This document shows positions 1 to 62,114 of a DNA stretch of 64,000 nucleotides, piece by piece. The position numbers were made by a program, and so were the translations under genes. Location of the stretch: NCBI RefSeq assembly GCF_001441165.1, contig NZ_CP013126.1, positions 62,001-126,000 on the forward strand, in the 5' to 3' direction. Positions within the stretch are counted from its first letter, which is position 1; every line of letters begins with the position of its first letter. The stretch comes from Acidipropionibacterium acidipropionici. Its GTDB lineage: Bacteria > Actinomycetota > Actinomycetes > Propionibacteriales > Propionibacteriaceae. A model generated the notes under the pieces. That model saw only the letters and a list, made by a program, of their open reading frames with translations. It made no database searches and had not been told where the DNA came from.

Positions 1-64
1 GGCCTGCCCCGGAGACGAACCGATCGGTCGGCGTGCCGGGCGGGATGGTGTCGGGAGGGGTCAC
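1..64 (-). CDS. possible 5' end of an unidentified gene running off the window
   Basis: A minus-strand frame opens with GTG at 64-62 and stays open for 21 codons to the window edge; it begins V-T-P-P-D-T-I-P-P-G. A TACTGT stretch just upstream could be a -10 element of a leaderless transcript, which is common in actinobacteria. The fragment is too short to identify, and the call rests only on the open frame and its position divergent from the lipoprotein gene. Confidence 0.25.
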   Translation of the reverse strand, partial: MTPPDTIPPGTPTDRFVSGAG

Positions 65-257
65 ATCAGGCACAGTATCGCCGGGACTCCACCGGGCCAG
101 ATTCCGGAGATCCCGTCTCGTCTCGAGGCATGGGTTTTTCCGGAGAACCCGGTGGTTTCCAGTTGCTTTTCCCGTCTTCTGGTCAGTTGTGCGTTGTTCT
201 TCCCGGTCGTTCCACAGAACCTTCCCTTCGAGCCACCCATGCGCATAGCTTCCCGCC

Positions 258-827
258 ATGAATCGCACACGAACGACGACGTTCCTCCCCCGGATCATCC
301 TCCTCGCCGCGCTGCCCGCTCTGGGGCTGGTCGGCTGCACTCCCCAGAATGACTCGCCGCCACCGGCCACCTCCACGTCCCGGGCTCCCTCGGCGGCGAC
401 GTCGGCGACCGGGGACCCGATGGGCACCGCCTACGCCGAGCGCCGGGCGACCCTGGACGACACCGCGATGAAGCTCGAGATCTTCCCGATCCGGCGCTCC
501 GGCAAGGTCGCGACGCTCACCGCCAGGCTCACCATCGAGAGGGCGACCACCGACGTTCAGGGGTTTCTGTCCCCGTTGAGCCGGACGCGGGCGATCACCG
601 ATCCGGCACCGGCCGGATTCACCCTGGTCGCCCGCGAGGAGGGCAAGGCCTATCTGCCGGCGGAGGACTCGGACAGGCACCCGATGTGCAGTCCGACGAT
701 CGACAGTGTGGAGACCGGCGACGTCATGATCGTCTCCTGCCTGTTCGGGGCGCCAGAGCCCTCGACCACCGCCGTCGACGTGCAGGTCGTCACCTTCGGG
801 AATTACCATGCGGTCCCGCTGGCCTGA
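258..827 (+). CDS. putative secreted lipoprotein
   Basis: The 189-residue product starts with a basic n-region and a hydrophobic stretch ending in a lipobox (L-V-G-C, Cys near residue 26), so it should be lipidated and anchored on the outer face of the membrane. A Pro/Ser/Thr-rich linker follows, then a domain of about 130 residues with no family I recognise. Two later Cys residues (in M-C-S-P and S-C-L-F) could form a disulfide. Its end overlaps the OmpA-like gene by 20 bases, so the two are probably co-translated and may work together at the envelope. ATG was chosen because it gives the intact signal peptide. Confidence 0.75.
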   Translation: MNRTRTTTFLPRIILLAALPALGLVGCTPQNDSPPPATSTSRAPSAATSATGDPMGTAYAERRATLDDTAMKLEIFPIRRSGKVATLTARLTIERATTDVQGFLSPLSRTRAITDPAPAGFTLVAREEGKAYLPAEDSDRHPMCSPTIDSVETGDVMIVSCLFGAPEPSTTAVDVQVVTFGNYHAVPLA

Positions 828-1419
828 GGGCGCCGTCGTGGCGAGGGTGGCGCTGGCCTCCGGGCTGGTCCTCCTCCTCGGTGTCCTGGTGAGTGCCGAG
901 GGCGGCGAGGCCGTGGCCGCTCACCGTGTGCCGTTCCCGGCGAGGACGACGACTCCCGAGCCTTTCGGGGAGCCGGCGTCCCTTCCGACGATCGACCTGG
1001 TCTCGCGCACCGTGACCCTCGTTCCCGTCACCAAGGACCTCGGCGATGCGGCCGAGGAGAGACCCTCGGGGACCGCCTACGACGTCCGGCTCAACGCCAA
1101 CGTGCTCTTCGCCAAGGACTCCGCCGTGATCCGGCCGCAGGTCTCGGCGCGGCTGGCGCAGATCACCGCGGAGCTGAAGAGGCGTGGGCCGGGGGCGGTG
1201 ACCATCACCGGGTACACCGACGACCTGGGGTCCGAGGAGCACGGCCTGGTGCTCTCGCGCCAACGGGCGGCGGCGGTCCGGGCGGTCCTGGAGCCGGAAC
1301 TGCCCGGGTACCGGATCACGAGCCTCGGAAAGGGCGAGGCCGACCCGCTGGTGCCGAACAAGGACGAGACGTCCCGGGCGAGGAACCGGCGGGTCGAGGT
1401 CCATTACGAGAAGTCCTGA
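808..1419 (+). CDS. OmpA-family peptidoglycan-binding protein
   Basis: The 203-residue protein has an N-terminal hydrophobic segment (about residues 10-30, signal peptide or anchor). Residues 90-200 form an OmpA/MotB C-terminal domain, shown by V-L-F-A-K-D-S-A, the I-T-G-Y-T-D-D-L-G motif, an L-S-x-x-R-A-A-A-V helix and the terminal N-R-R-V-E-V. Domains of this family bind meso-diaminopimelate-type peptides of peptidoglycan. In a Gram-positive lineage it probably tethers an envelope complex to the wall. It overlaps the preceding lipoprotein gene by 20 bases, so the pair likely forms one operon, and a strong palindrome follows the stop. Confidence 0.85.
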   Translation: MRSRWPEGAVVARVALASGLVLLLGVLVSAEGGEAVAAHRVPFPARTTTPEPFGEPASLPTIDLVSRTVTLVPVTKDLGDAAEERPSGTAYDVRLNANVLFAKDSAVIRPQVSARLAQITAELKRRGPGAVTITGYTDDLGSEEHGLVLSRQRAAAVRAVLEPELPGYRITSLGKGEADPLVPNKDETSRARNRRVEVHYEKS

Positions 1420-1423
1420 CGTG

Positions 1424-1469
1424 GCTCTGTCGAGTTGATGCCAGATGACCAGCATCAACTCGACAGAGC
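1424..1469. repeat. palindrome, copy 1, upstream of the orphan nuclease gene
   Basis: Two perfect 18-base arms (1424-1441 and 1452-1469) flank a 10-base loop. The core TGTCGAGTTGATG and its complement recur in the palindrome at 2442-2491, and both loops contain ATGACCA. The hairpin could act as a terminator for the OmpA-like gene. The near-identical copy on the other side of the next gene suggests a mobile or boundary role as well. Confidence 0.85.
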
Positions 1470-1496
1470 TCGAGGGGTCCGGAAGGAGGAGCCGCC

Positions 1497-2429
1497 ATGA
1501 AACCTCGGACAGTGGTCCCTGCGGAGCTCATCGGCATCGCGCGGTTCCAGAGCGGTGTCGTGAGCCGGCAGCAGGCTCTTGAGGCGGGGCTGACCCATGT
1601 CGGCGTGCGCGGCCTGGTCGGGACCGGTCGCTGGAAGCCCATCGCGCGCGGCATCTACAGCATGGGCGAAGTGAGGTGGGAGCAGCTGCTGTGGGCCGGA
1701 GTCCTCATCGGCGGCCCGGGCTCAACGGTCGGCGGGCTGGCCGCGGCCCATCAACTGGGCATCGCGCCTCAACCGGAGGTCATCGACATCTGGGCGCCGC
1801 GTGCGGCCTCGTACCGCCGAAGGGCTGCACCGAGTCCGTGGGACTTCCACCGTGGGACCCGGGCCTCGCGGGGCAATCCTCCGCATCTGAGCGTCGAGGA
1901 GACGGTCCTCGACCTCTGCTCGACCTGCGGTCCGGACGGCATCACAGCATGGATAGGCAAGGCCGTCGGAGGGTGGCTCACCACTCCCGACCGGATCCTC
2001 GCCGCGCTGGAGCGGACACCCAATCTGAGGAACCGGAAGCTCATCGGGGAGTGCCTCGGGGTGGTGGCCGGCGGTTCGAACAGCGCTTTGGAGGCGCGTT
2101 ACCGGCGCGATGTCGAGCAGGCGCACGGGCTTCCGATCGGGACCAGGCAGAAGTCGGTGTCGTCAGGCACGGCGTCGGATGTGGTCTACCAGGAGTACGG
2201 CACCATCGCCGAACTCGATGGGAAACTCGGGCACCGCGGGGACGGGGAGGTCCGCGACGCGTGGCGGGACTCGAAGCACCTGCTGCTGGGCTTCGTGACG
2301 CTGCGCTTCGGCTGGGCCGATGTCACCGGGCGGCCGTGCGAGGTGGCGGCCCGGGTCCCAGATGTGCTGCGGATGCGCGGATGGGATGGTGTTCCCCAGC
2401 TGTGCCCCGATTGTCTCCACGTCGCATGA
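1497..2429 (+). CDS. orphan AbiEi-type / DUF559 (Vsr-like) nuclease-domain protein
   Basis: The 310-residue protein begins with a winged-helix region (about residues 10-55: S-R-Q-Q-A-L-E-A-G then R-G-I-Y) like the AbiEi antitoxin N-terminus. The C-terminal half (about 215-300) resembles the Vsr/DUF559 endonuclease fold, with I-A-E-L-D-G-K-L-G-H and L-R-F-G-W-A-D-V. The candidate acidic residues E and D in AELDG are present. Such genes are common orphans in actinobacteria and their function is unproven; no AbiEii-like nucleotidyltransferase toxin is adjacent. A ribosome site GGAGGAG precedes the ATG. The gene is bounded by near-identical palindromes at 1424-1469 and 2442-2491. Confidence 0.7.
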   Translation: MKPRTVVPAELIGIARFQSGVVSRQQALEAGLTHVGVRGLVGTGRWKPIARGIYSMGEVRWEQLLWAGVLIGGPGSTVGGLAAAHQLGIAPQPEVIDIWAPRAASYRRRAAPSPWDFHRGTRASRGNPPHLSVEETVLDLCSTCGPDGITAWIGKAVGGWLTTPDRILAALERTPNLRNRKLIGECLGVVAGGSNSALEARYRRDVEQAHGLPIGTRQKSVSSGTASDVVYQEYGTIAELDGKLGHRGDGEVRDAWRDSKHLLLGFVTLRFGWADVTGRPCEVAARVPDVLRMRGWDGVPQLCPDCLHVA

Positions 2430-2441
2430 CCGGAGTCGCGC

Positions 2442-2491
2442 GGGCTGTGTCGAGTTGATGCGGAATGACCAACATCAACTCGACACAGCCC
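2442..2491. repeat. palindrome, copy 2, downstream of the orphan nuclease gene
   Basis: Perfect 19-base arms (2442-2460 and 2473-2491) surround a 12-base loop and start 12 bases after the nuclease-gene stop. The arms match copy 1 except at the outer end. The hairpin lies between two convergent genes, so it can serve as a bidirectional terminator for this gene and for groEL. Confidence 0.85.
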
Positions 2492-2596
2492 CGGGGAAAG
2501 ACGAGGACGGTGGCCCTGCGCCGCAGAATCGCGTCACGCAGAGCCACCGCCGGGGGCTCGAAGGGGGTTGCCCCCTCGCCCATCAGAGGACCGGGA

Positions 2597-4396
<1,800 letters not shown>

Positions 4397-4404
4397 TCAC
4401 GACG

Positions 4405-4431
4405 GTGGCACTCTCACTGGGCGAGTGCCAA
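4405..4431. promoter_or_regulatory. CIRCE operator 1 (HrcA site)
   Basis: GTGGCACTC and GAGTGCCAA are separated by exactly nine bases, matching the CIRCE consensus TTAGCACTC-N9-GAGTGCTAA with two changes in the left arm and one in the right. It lies between the promoter and groEL. Confidence 0.9.
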
Positions 4432-4436
4432 CATCA

Positions 4437-4465
4437 TTTTTAGCACTCGACCCAAGGGAGTGCAA
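4437..4465 (-). promoter_or_regulatory. groEL promoter (-35/-10)
   Basis: On the minus strand TTGCAC (4465-4460) and TAAAAA (4442-4437) are separated by 17 bases, a good housekeeping sigma-factor promoter. The -35 box and the edge of the -10 box lie within the upstream CIRCE element, so HrcA binding should block polymerase. Confidence 0.6.
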
Positions 4466-4466
4466 A
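4440..4466. promoter_or_regulatory. CIRCE operator 2 (HrcA site)
   Basis: TTAGCACTC and GAGTGCAAA are separated by nine bases; the left arm is a perfect CIRCE half-site. The element overlaps the predicted groEL -35 region, so it is probably the stronger repressor site. Confidence 0.92.
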
Positions 4467-4474
4467 GAGTCGGC

Positions 4475-4753
4475 TCACTCGAGCCGGTCGGCGGAGCGGG
4501 CGGCGCGACGCTGGTCACGGACCCTCCTCAGCCTGCCGATGAGGGCCGGGGAATGGGCGGCCGCCGCGGGATCGTCGAGGAGCTCGTTGAGACGCTGGTG
4601 ATATCTGGGGGACGAGATGCCCAACCGGTCCCGGATCAGGGCCTCCTTGTCGCCGGTGATCCGGCCGAGCTGCCAGTCCTCCTCCATCTCGAGCAGAGCG
4701 GCGTCGGAGGACGCCAGGTCGTCATCGGGATGCTGCTGGGAGGCGTCGGTCAT
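4475..4753 (-). CDS. DUF3263 family small protein
   Basis: The 92-residue product has the DUF3263 pattern: an acidic N-terminus, then L-L-E-M-E-E-D-W and a helical segment [17 protein letters not shown]. This resembles a short sigma-factor or HTH-like fold common in actinobacteria. Function is unknown; DNA binding is an inference from the helical pattern. The ATG at 4753 fits the family N-terminus better than the longer upstream frame. It points the same way as groEL and ends 9 bases before the CIRCE region. Confidence 0.7.
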
Positions 4754-4897
4754 CACCGGGAAAGTGTATTCGGCGGGTCCTCCCGCCCTCTCACAGCTCA
4801 GACTCAATGGTGTTGTGGGTAGGACCTGTCATCATGGACGGTGAGGGCCGCCGCGACGATGCGATGACCTGGCCCTGACGATTTGGAGGGAACCTCG

Positions 4898-6079
4898 ATG
4901 GAGCGGCTGTCCGGCAGCATCAGGAACTACGCCTGGGGGTCGATGGACGCGATACCCCGCATTCTGGGCCGGGAACCGGACGGTCTTCCCCAGGCCGAGT
5001 ACTGGCTGGGGAGCTACGAGTCCGCCCCCTCCTCGGCCGCCGAGCAGTCCCTCCTCGATCGCCTCGGGGCCCATCCCGAGGAGCTCGGTGACGCGAACCG
5101 CGAACACTTCGGCGACCGCCTGCCCTTCCTGCTGAAGATCCTCTCCGCCGCCAAACCGCTCAGCCTCCAGGCCCACCCCGACCGAACGGCCGCCGGCGAG
5201 GGGCACGCGCGGTCCCTGGCGGCCGGTGTCGAGGCAGATCAGCGCACCTTCGTCGACGAGTGGCCCCGCCCCGAGCTCATGGTGGCGCTCAGCGAGGTCG
5301 AGGCCCTGTACGGATTCCGGGATCCGCTGCACACCCGCAAGCTCTTCGACGCCCTGGGCACCAGGACCTCACTGGATCCTGTGCTCGGGCCCCTCACCGA
5401 GAGGTCGGGCTCCGCCGCAATGGCAGAGGTCTTCCTGGACACGCTGACGGTCGACGCGAAGCGACGGGCGATGGCTCGCGAGGTGGTCTCGGCCGCCGTC
5501 AACCACGTCGGGGAGGACTCCGACCTGGGCGAGTTCTGCCGCACCGCCGTCGAGCTGGACGAGCACCGCCCGGACGACTCCACGATCCTCGCCGCACTGC
5601 TGCTCAACCGCGTCCATCTGTCGCCCGGGCAGGCGCTGAGGGTGCCGCCGGGAACCCTCCACACCTACCTGTCGGGCACCGGCGTCGAGATCTCGGCGAA
5701 CTCCAACAACATCGTGCGCGGCGGCCTCACCGACAAGCTCATCGACGTCGACGCGCTCATCAGCATCGTCAACTTCAACCCCTGCGGGGCCGGCGTCGTC
5801 GAACCCGTCGGCGACGGAGTGATCGACGAGTACCCCACCGATTTCCCCGAGTGCCGGCTGTGGGCGCTGCATCTGCGTCCCGGGCACGCACCGATCCTCC
5901 CGGCCACCGACGGCCCCAGGATCCTGCTGGTGATCGGCGGGCACGCGGTGTGCTCGAGCTCGGCGGGCACCGAGGAGACCGTGGGCGGTCACGCGCTGTG
6001 GATCCCGGCCGGCGAGCAGGTCCAGGTGCAGGGCAACTGCGACGGTTTCCTGGCGGGAGTCGGGACGCCGCAGGAGTGA
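4898..6079 (+). CDS. manA: mannose-6-phosphate isomerase, class I
   Basis: This 393-residue type I phosphomannose isomerase interconverts mannose-6-phosphate and fructose-6-phosphate in the cytosol. The signature is intact: N-Y-A-W-G-S near the start, the zinc-binding L-Q-A-H-P-D at about residue 92, a Glu in the R-P-E-L-M region, and the P-P-G-T-L-H-T-Y loop with its zinc His at about 255. The ATG at 4898 is preceded by GGAGGG at a 7-base spacing and was preferred over TTG at 4883. luxS follows 37 bases downstream and may share the transcript. Confidence 0.95.
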
Positions 6080-61541: not shown

Positions 61542-62114
61542 TCAGGACAGCTCGGAGGTGGACGGGCGACGCCTCTCGGCCGGGGCTCCGGAGACCTCGT
61601 CCTCGTAGCCGTCGTCGAGTATCTGGACGTCGGTCACCTGAATATTGACCTCCACGACCTCCAGCCCGGTGCCGTACTCGACGGCGTCGATGATGGTCTC
61701 GCGCAGCTTGTTGGCCACCTCGACCACCGAGTAGCCGTACTCGACGACGATGCTGACGTCGATGGCGCACTGCCTCTCGCCCTTTTCCACCTGGACGCCG
61801 TTGGAGACGTTGGTGGTGGAACCGGGGATCCGCTCGGTGAGGCTGGTGAGCATCCGGCGCCCGGAATTGCCCATCGCGTAGACGCCGGGCACCTCCTGGC
61901 ATGCGATCCCGGCGATCTTCTGCACCACCTGCTCGGCGATCAGGGTGCTGCCGTGATCGGTGTGCAGCGGCGAGGGCGGCAGGCTCTCCCGGGCCTCATC
62001 ACGGCCCGCGGCCGAGTCCCGCTCCGGACGTCCGGTGCCCGGCTCCCTGCTCACGCTCTTCTTCTCGGTCGTGCCAATCTTCTCGGTCGTGCCATGGTCG
62101 GCGGCGTCTGCCAT
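61542..62114 (-). CDS. Asp23/Gls24 family envelope stress protein
   Basis: The 190-residue protein has a charged, low-complexity N-terminus of about 60 residues, then a full Asp23 domain (I-A-E-Q-V-V-Q-K-I-A-G-I-A, C-A-I-D-V-S-I-V-V-E-Y-G-Y-S-V, V-E-V-N-I-Q-V-T-D-V). Family members are abundant cytosolic proteins that coat the membrane and help wall integrity. ATG at 62114 has GGAGG at 5 bases. It leads the operon Asp23, DUF2273, Asp23-DUF6286, AmaP-like. Confidence 0.9.
   Translation of the reverse strand: MADAADHGTTEKIGTTEKKSVSREPGTGRPERDSAAGRDEARESLPPSPLHTDHGSTLIAEQVVQKIAGIACQEVPGVYAMGNSGRRMLTSLTERIPGSTTNVSNGVQVEKGERQCAIDVSIVVEYGYSVVEVANKLRETIIDAVEYGTGLEVVEVNIQVTDVQILDDGYEDEVSGAPAERRRPSTSELS

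Follow-up and report, generated by a model that had tools for sequence, protein, structure and literature searches.

The types of REP palindromes and of RAYT genes co-vary and are mostly inherited vertically. According to one article (PMC3733652), RAYTs are IS200-like tyrosine transposases and their genes are flanked by GTAG repeats, which are also scattered elsewhere, many of them no more than 20 b from the 3′ end of a gene, and frequently as dimers. The article names Proteobacteria, Cyanobacteria, Chloroflexi and PVC for GTAG repeats, with 0 occurrences of "actinobact" in its text. For CGTC-tagged REPs, which are small palindromes located at the ends of genes, its authors identified no dedicated transposase. 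RAYTs also carry the HUH/Y1 label (PMC6006769). In the AbiE type IV toxin-antitoxin system, inverted repeats in the promoter are bound by the antitoxin AbiEi itself (PMC7319586), and VsrA of Caulobacter has a DUF559 domain of PD-(D/E)XK type (PMC12907096). Among the matches listed from the open-access PMC literature, with subscription papers and preprints lying outside this scope, we found no report of AbiEi/DUF559 genes bounded by their own palindromes.

Here we analysed such a gene in a window (the whole stretch of 64,000 nucleotides, positions 62,001 to 126,000 of contig NZ_CP013126.1) of Acidipropionibacterium acidipropionici. The genome of the window, called G000 here, has 3.65 Mb and its sister is G004. 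The gene and its two hairpins probably belong together as one unit of a REP/RAYT-like system in which an unrelated nuclease takes the place of the RAYT.

A nuclease gene between two hairpins

The features of the locus are the following:
808..1419, + strand: upstream neighbour, OmpA-domain protein (context)
1424..1469, no strand: hairpin 1, the palindrome upstream of the gene; arms of 18 b without mismatch, loop CAGATGACCA; its family has 12 places in G000, this one included
1481..1489, + strand: putative Shine-Dalgarno-like GGAAGGAGG 5′ of the ATG, predicted from the sequence
1497..2429, + strand: 310-aa gene, AbiEi-like region fused to a DUF559/Vsr-like nuclease region
1524..2024, + strand: AbiEi-like region, aa 10-176 (PADLOC AbiEi, Pfam AbiEi_4, PDB chains)
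2079..2417, + strand: nuclease region, aa 195-307 (invariant residues in 138 homologues, Pfam DUF559)
2442..2491, no strand: hairpin 2, the palindrome downstream of the gene; arms of 19 b without mismatch, loop CGGAATGACCAA
2597..4393, - strand: downstream convergent neighbour, a reading-frame call which we take to be GroEL-like (context)

The arms of hairpin 1 (1424-1441/1452-1469, 18 b) and of hairpin 2 (2442-2460/2473-2491, 19 b) are 100% complementary and enclose loops of 10 b and 12 b, respectively, both of which contain ATGACCA. The hairpins are 83% identical over 54 b and are located 27 b before the ATG (1497) and 12 b past the stop (2429), exactly as the initial annotation had described a perfect hairpin on each side of the gene with a shared loop motif. 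A composite hairpin pattern had 2 matches in the window against a mean of 0.00 in shuffled sequences, and folding as single-stranded DNA gave -21.3 kcal/mol (z -9.2) for hairpin 1 and -24.3 kcal/mol (z -10.7) for hairpin 2.

The further argument of that annotation, that a terminator would be needed only downstream, turned out to be weak. Hairpin 1 is also located 4 b 3′ of the stop codon of the OmpA gene (1419) and could alone terminate that gene. Because of this position the window by itself allows a terminator reading, and the case for a hairpin-gene unit is carried by the comparative data. The OmpA neighbour of the gene was found only in G000 and G004, both of which carry the nuclease gene, so that no gene-less counterpart of the window locus was obtained. 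Two Rfam matches in positions 1-6000 of the window, mir-196 on hairpin 2 (25.1 bits, threshold 55.4) and CRISPR-DR20, were below threshold and were taken as chance.

In the corresponding region of G004 (L052:5194-6219), an extra gene, presumably with a DUF2510-like start, and a third hairpin separate the nuclease gene from the GroEL-like frame. The left flank of the window hairpin at 2442-2491 matches that of hairpin 2 in G004 and its right flank matches that of hairpin 3, as if the extra gene had been lost or gained between hairpins.

Domains of the protein

Residues 10-176 match the PADLOC AbiEi model (E 9.5e-12), and Pfam AbiEi_4 was found in 37 of 38 aligned members. Pfam DUF559 was recovered in 24 of the 38 at E up to 0.1 (best 1e-8), with the window protein itself scoring 13.5 bits, below the cut-off of 20.6. 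The top solved chains of the profile were 9hlo, "Abortive infection protein AbiGI" (E 0.0035), and 6y8q, "Abortive phage infection protein" (E 0.0039), and 3hrl, "Endonuclease-Like Protein", was also matched (range of the top chains 0.0035-0.0041). The fold assignment rests on these profiles because the AlphaFold model of the window protein alone, predicted without an alignment, had a pLDDT of 38 and was unusable. NCBIfam gave one chance-level match and PHROGs gave none.

Nine residues (E199, H210, D228, E239, D241, H246, D254, D258 and R270) are invariant in 138/138 distinct homologues, the one of the window included. Since these residues never vary, an active nuclease appears to be maintained, and E199, D228, E239 and D241 are candidates from which the catalytic residues would come. 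Three cysteines are nearly invariant (C281 and C303 in 137/138, C306 in 136/138); that they bind a metal is our guess. The window protein contains no H-x-H. Among the homologues, 28/138 have H-hydrophobic-H somewhere but in no conserved column, and no HUH motif was present among the conserved columns of the 138.

The N-terminal region thus relates the protein to AbiEi of the AbiE system. Unlike in AbiE, no gene for the AbiEii (DUF1814) toxin is adjacent to the window gene, whose neighbours are the OmpA-domain gene and the GroEL-like frame; the protein has an extra nuclease domain, and the palindrome occurs also downstream and scattered. With Vsr/DUF559 endonucleases the protein shares the PD-(D/E)XK-type DUF559 domain, and it differs from them by the fused AbiEi part and by the palindromes.

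Matched palindromes around homologues

We searched for palindromes around homologues of the gene in the class Actinomycetes. From 150 loci that entered the analysis, two were too short (L252 and L253) and two contain N (L085 and L207), leaving 146. A further 8 were dropped as duplicate proteins and 7 because their flanks were short, so that 131 distinct loci with at least 450 b on both sides remained. A pair was considered matched when palindromes were alike across the gene, with a local alignment score of at least 18 in either orientation.

A matched pair, with one palindrome on each side of the gene, was found at 76/131 loci, namely 63/106 in the family of the window genome and 13/25 in other families. 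No matched pair (0/131) was found in control zones located about 930-1400 b from the gene; full control zones on both sides were available at 122 loci (71 of them matched), and 9/131 lacked a full zone on one side. An earlier version of the analysis with other bounds gave a similar picture, 58/93 against 0/93 in the controls; it started from 97 loci, of which 4 with short flanks were left out, and two duplicates were also dropped. Having some palindrome on each side, alike or not, is itself more frequent at the gene (104 loci) than in the control zones (23). This makes it important that upstream palindromes compared with those of other random loci matched in 11/2620 cases.

Among other genes of G000 and G004, the only two genomes used for this control, 0/472 had a matched pair. 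These genes come from 40 regions of 17-20 kb plus the window, a few of which overlap by 2-4 kb so that some genes were counted twice, and genes within 600 b of a nuclease match were excluded. The initial annotation had proposed to look for the palindromes next to AbiEi/DUF559 genes at different loci, and this co-occurrence was borne out, with different palindrome families flanking different members. It had also regarded conservation of the gene without palindromes as evidence against the idea, and this was partly seen: by the definition used here, 55/131 copies have no matched pair, 29 of them with a strong palindrome on at least one side.

The median palindrome length at the matched loci is 46 b. 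The upstream palindrome ends at a median of 69.5 b before the start codon and the downstream one begins at a median of 2 b after the stop codon. The two copies have the same orientation in 56 cases and are inverted in 20. Regarding the loops, GAC/GTC was present at 56 of the 76 loci (36 expected), ATGAC at 12 (1.1 expected) and AACTC at 10 (1.0 expected). These enrichments are only suggestive because none exceeds the largest k-mer count in shuffles.

Each gene has its own palindrome

Across the 76 matched loci, the more identical two proteins are, the more similar are their palindromes (Mantel r 0.46, p 0.001). The share of locus pairs with a palindrome score of at least 18 is 0.00 below 35% protein identity and 0.42 at 60% or more. 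Paralogues in the same genome shared a palindrome in none of 21 pairs (best score 17, threshold 18), and the palindrome is therefore private to the gene and not to the genome. Three paralogue pairs with 62-64% protein identity, all in G134, also share no palindrome. In many genomes of family f21 the palindromes (L185-L204, mostly from this family) have a common outer arm like CCATGATCATCAA and inner arms that differ, which gives the impression of a modular hairpin.

These data bear on the reading in which the palindromes are ordinary host transcription terminators that are alike by chance. The location of hairpins near gene 3′ ends, with hairpin 1 directly behind the OmpA gene, would fit it, but the sequence is private to the gene, at least 5 T within the 10 b after the downstream palindrome were found at only 1/76 loci, 19 of 70 assigned upstream neighbours are divergent, and the pattern is absent from the 472 other genes. 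On these grounds we rejected plain terminators as highly improbable.

Distribution of the nuclease gene

Homologues were identified in 92/147 genomes of the family (E up to 0.001), with up to 8 per genome, and in 95/296 genomes of the class Actinomycetes (E up to 1e-10), with up to 7 per genome. A tblastn search of 72,556 plasmid records returned no match and one of 50,697 phage records returned one partial match only. This is a fecal phage contig (MT835975.1:8497-9048), which encodes a homologue of residues 128-306 with 41% identity. In viral contigs there were 66 pattern matches, none of which was confirmed as a homologue.

Around one nuclease paralogue (L087 and L092; G000:222000, G004:2780500) several kb are 95-99% identical between the two sister genomes, compared with 65-94% in other compared blocks, which looks like a recent exchange between them. 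The copy in G004 (L092) is without part of the nuclease gene.

Scattered copies of the palindromes

The strict core of the window hairpin occurs 7 times in G000 and 10 times in G004 and is absent from three other species of the genus (G001-G003). A covariance model built from 19 hairpin copies (E up to 0.1, with 150 of about 1,500 candidates scored per genome) found 12 places in G000, of which 10 are strong and 2 weak, as well as 15 in G004, and none in G001-G003. With stricter filters, the palindrome was present in 4 of 97 genomes of the family, the two additional ones being G027 with 7 places and G025 with one. In G027, which belongs to another genus, 2 of the 7 places flank a homologue (C9:16658-17572) that is 39% identical to the window protein. 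The recurrence of the hairpin arms elsewhere, which was one of the checks suggested at the beginning, was thus seen. The single window-type hairpin in G025 (C1:3177304-3177357, L119), also another genus, does not lie beside either of the two listed homologues of that genome. One match of the strict hairpin in a Saprospiraceae MAG contig, obtained from a genome contig collection that may omit the genome of the window, was taken as chance. The covariation score of the 19 aligned hairpins exceeded all 500 shuffles and the number of pairs changed on both sides was reached by 50/500; as the hairpins had been chosen for a conserved core, covariation was not relied on.

Of the scattered copies examined in G000 and G004, 11/14 are within 90 b of a gene 3′ end, the exceptions being L043, L044 and L055, and the copies are mostly at 3′ ends, not promoters.

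The second palindrome family that we searched belongs to genus g28. The exact palindrome AGTTGTGCA...TGCACAACT was found in 3/39 g28 genomes, at 15 places in G083, 18 in G118 and 9 in G461, partly in tandem arrays with a spacing of 73-74 b. The protein flanked in G083 has near-full-length orthologues in G118 (71% identity), G455 (69%) and G461 (64%), the next full-length match having 52% and short fragments up to 57%. The exact palindrome is therefore present in 3/4 genomes whose orthologue reaches 60% identity or more and in 0/35 others. It flanks the orthologue in G083 and G118, and diverged forms flank the gene in G455 and G461. Nine places or clusters inspected in G083, G118 and G461 are mostly beside ordinary genes. 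At one place in G118 (L338, C16:567648-568653) two small membrane-protein-like genes are located between copies of the palindrome.

In the two families searched, the extra copies are thus scattered mostly near gene ends and partly as tandem arrays. Palindromes common at ordinary gene ends without the gene had been named by the initial annotation as a counter-argument. Such places do exist, but nearly always in genomes with a related gene, the exception being the one place in G025.

The main rival to our interpretation is an operator or insulator, i.e. autoregulation, which we nevertheless consider rather unlikely. It supposes that the AbiEi-like domain represses its own promoter via the upstream palindrome, that the downstream copy either terminates transcription or serves as a second operator, and that the scattered copies are further targets, with no mobility involved. 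The antitoxins AbiEi and Rv2827c each bind their own promoter at inverted repeats of 23 bp (PMC7319586), and the median positions of the palindromes before the start and after the stop codon, as well as the 11/14 scattered copies close to gene 3′ ends, are compatible with this proposal. Nevertheless, the scattered copies lie mostly at 3′ ends and not at promoters, and an invariant nuclease site is unnecessary for a repressor. Autoregulation gives no reason for the likeness of the two copies within a locus and their difference between species, and it leaves the downstream copy, the tandem arrays, and the solo palindromes and relocated unit described below unaccounted for.

Sites with and without the gene

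Comparison of related genomes revealed gene-less sites, the empty sites that had been proposed as a check, two of which retain one solo palindrome in G000. At site 1 of G004, two palindromes enclose the gene (224754-225988), with an unrelated gene on the left; G000 lacks the gene and has one palindrome of that family (1284283-1284331). Since the extra DNA of G004 includes the unrelated gene, one of its boundaries is not a palindrome. At site 2, G004 has palindrome, gene and palindrome (2930667-2931768), and G000 lacks the gene and has one palindrome (392990-393032) resembling the one on the right. The partial gene of G004 at site 3 is absent from G000, where no cognate palindrome was found.

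Site 2 could be followed in five species. The gene is present with its own palindromes in G004, G001 and G002, with pair scores of 18 (at the threshold), 23 and 44, and it is absent from G000 and G003, the latter showing no clear palindrome at this site. The three proteins form a clade (support 95/91); the gene of G002 reads in two frames, and the palindromes of G001 form arrays with a spacing of 122-207 b. The gene at this site looks old, with palindromes that appear to have diverged between species and to be alike within species, and G000 seems to keep a solo palindrome. The indication that flanking copies are kept alike is strong in G002 and weaker in G001 and G004.

The unit of G083 provides the case of a different locus. 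Its flanks adjoin without the gene in at least 7 relatives (G118, G461, G455, G441, G444, G447 and G446), with 111-337 b between them, and are 67-83% alike between G083 and the seven. The orthologues of G118, G461 and G455 are found at another locus. The homology block between G083 and G455 starts at the left palindrome and ends in the right array, with about 110 b of the G455 contig beyond the left palindrome. Absence from a site in relatives combined with presence elsewhere, a feature of insertion sequences, was observed for the G083 unit only. The comparison indicates, for this one clade, that gene and palindromes moved together and without a palindrome at the target. We rejected as a rule that insertion always targets an existing palindrome, because none of the gene-less G083-type sites (0 of 7) nor site 3 in G000 has a cognate palindrome.

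Breaks of synteny between G000 and G004 often coincide with a hairpin edge or lie close to one (L042, L043, L044, L047 vs L049, L055, L287, L304), an observation made without a control; in one example there are about 3.85 kb extra in G004 at 3153853/640343.

Such breaks would be compatible with the nuclease gene being a passenger that rides between palindromes moved by another enzyme or by general recombination. Other genes are also found between palindromes, i.e. the gene with the presumed DUF2510-like start in G004 and the two membrane-protein-like genes in G118. On the other hand, a passenger would not predict which of the 39 g28 genomes hold the palindrome, the private palindromes co-diverge with the protein, and matched pairs surround 76/131 genes of the nuclease family but none of the 472 other genes of G000 and G004. 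We consider this explanation improbable.

Relation to known systems and proposed mechanism

The arrangement resembles REP/RAYT in that a gene is flanked by palindromes (76/131 loci) which recur in the genome (two palindrome families), and in both systems scattered copies lie near gene 3′ ends (PMC3733652 for the REPs). The enzyme here is AbiEi-like plus DUF559/Vsr-like and not an HUH/Y1 IS200-like transposase, none of the 19 copies aligned for the window family has a GTAG foot, and copy numbers are 7-18 places. The palindrome-nuclease system would thus work like REP/RAYT without being a member of it, on account of the enzyme, which is not HUH, and of the missing GTAG foot in the window family. 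CGTC REPs are similar as small palindromes at gene ends, and they differ by their phyla and tags, as well as by the dedicated gene that is evident here.

The initial suggestion of a palindrome-bounded cassette, similar to REP/RAYT with a Vsr-type nuclease, is supported by the matched pairs, the private palindromes, the scattered copies and the relocated unit. Sequence comparison documents association, privacy and co-divergence, scattering in two palindrome families, one relocation and two solo palindromes, and the recognition and cutting of its own hairpins by the nuclease and the copying of palindromes would be the steps behind this pattern. We propose that the AbiEi-like winged-helix part, perhaps together with the nuclease part, would recognise the cognate hairpin as a cruciform or a single-stranded hairpin, and that the PD-(D/E)XK/Vsr-like domain would nick or cut there. 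Repair or replication could then copy palindromes to new sites, keep the flanking copies alike and occasionally move or delete the unit. For the class as a whole we lean, with some reservation, towards a palindrome-nuclease system in which each AbiEi-DUF559 protein would recognise and cut its own hairpin, spreading hairpins, homogenising the flanking copies and moving its own gene, as an independently evolved counterpart of REP/RAYT.

If true, this would give a substrate and a biology to a large family of which only the AbiEi/DUF559 domain labels are known, and it would provide many naturally paired nuclease-hairpin specificities that are directly testable. This would also bear on the spread of palindromes without a known enzyme, such as the CGTC REPs. 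Actinobacteria would then have a REP-like system with an unrelated enzyme, and partnerships of palindromes and proteins would have arisen more than once.
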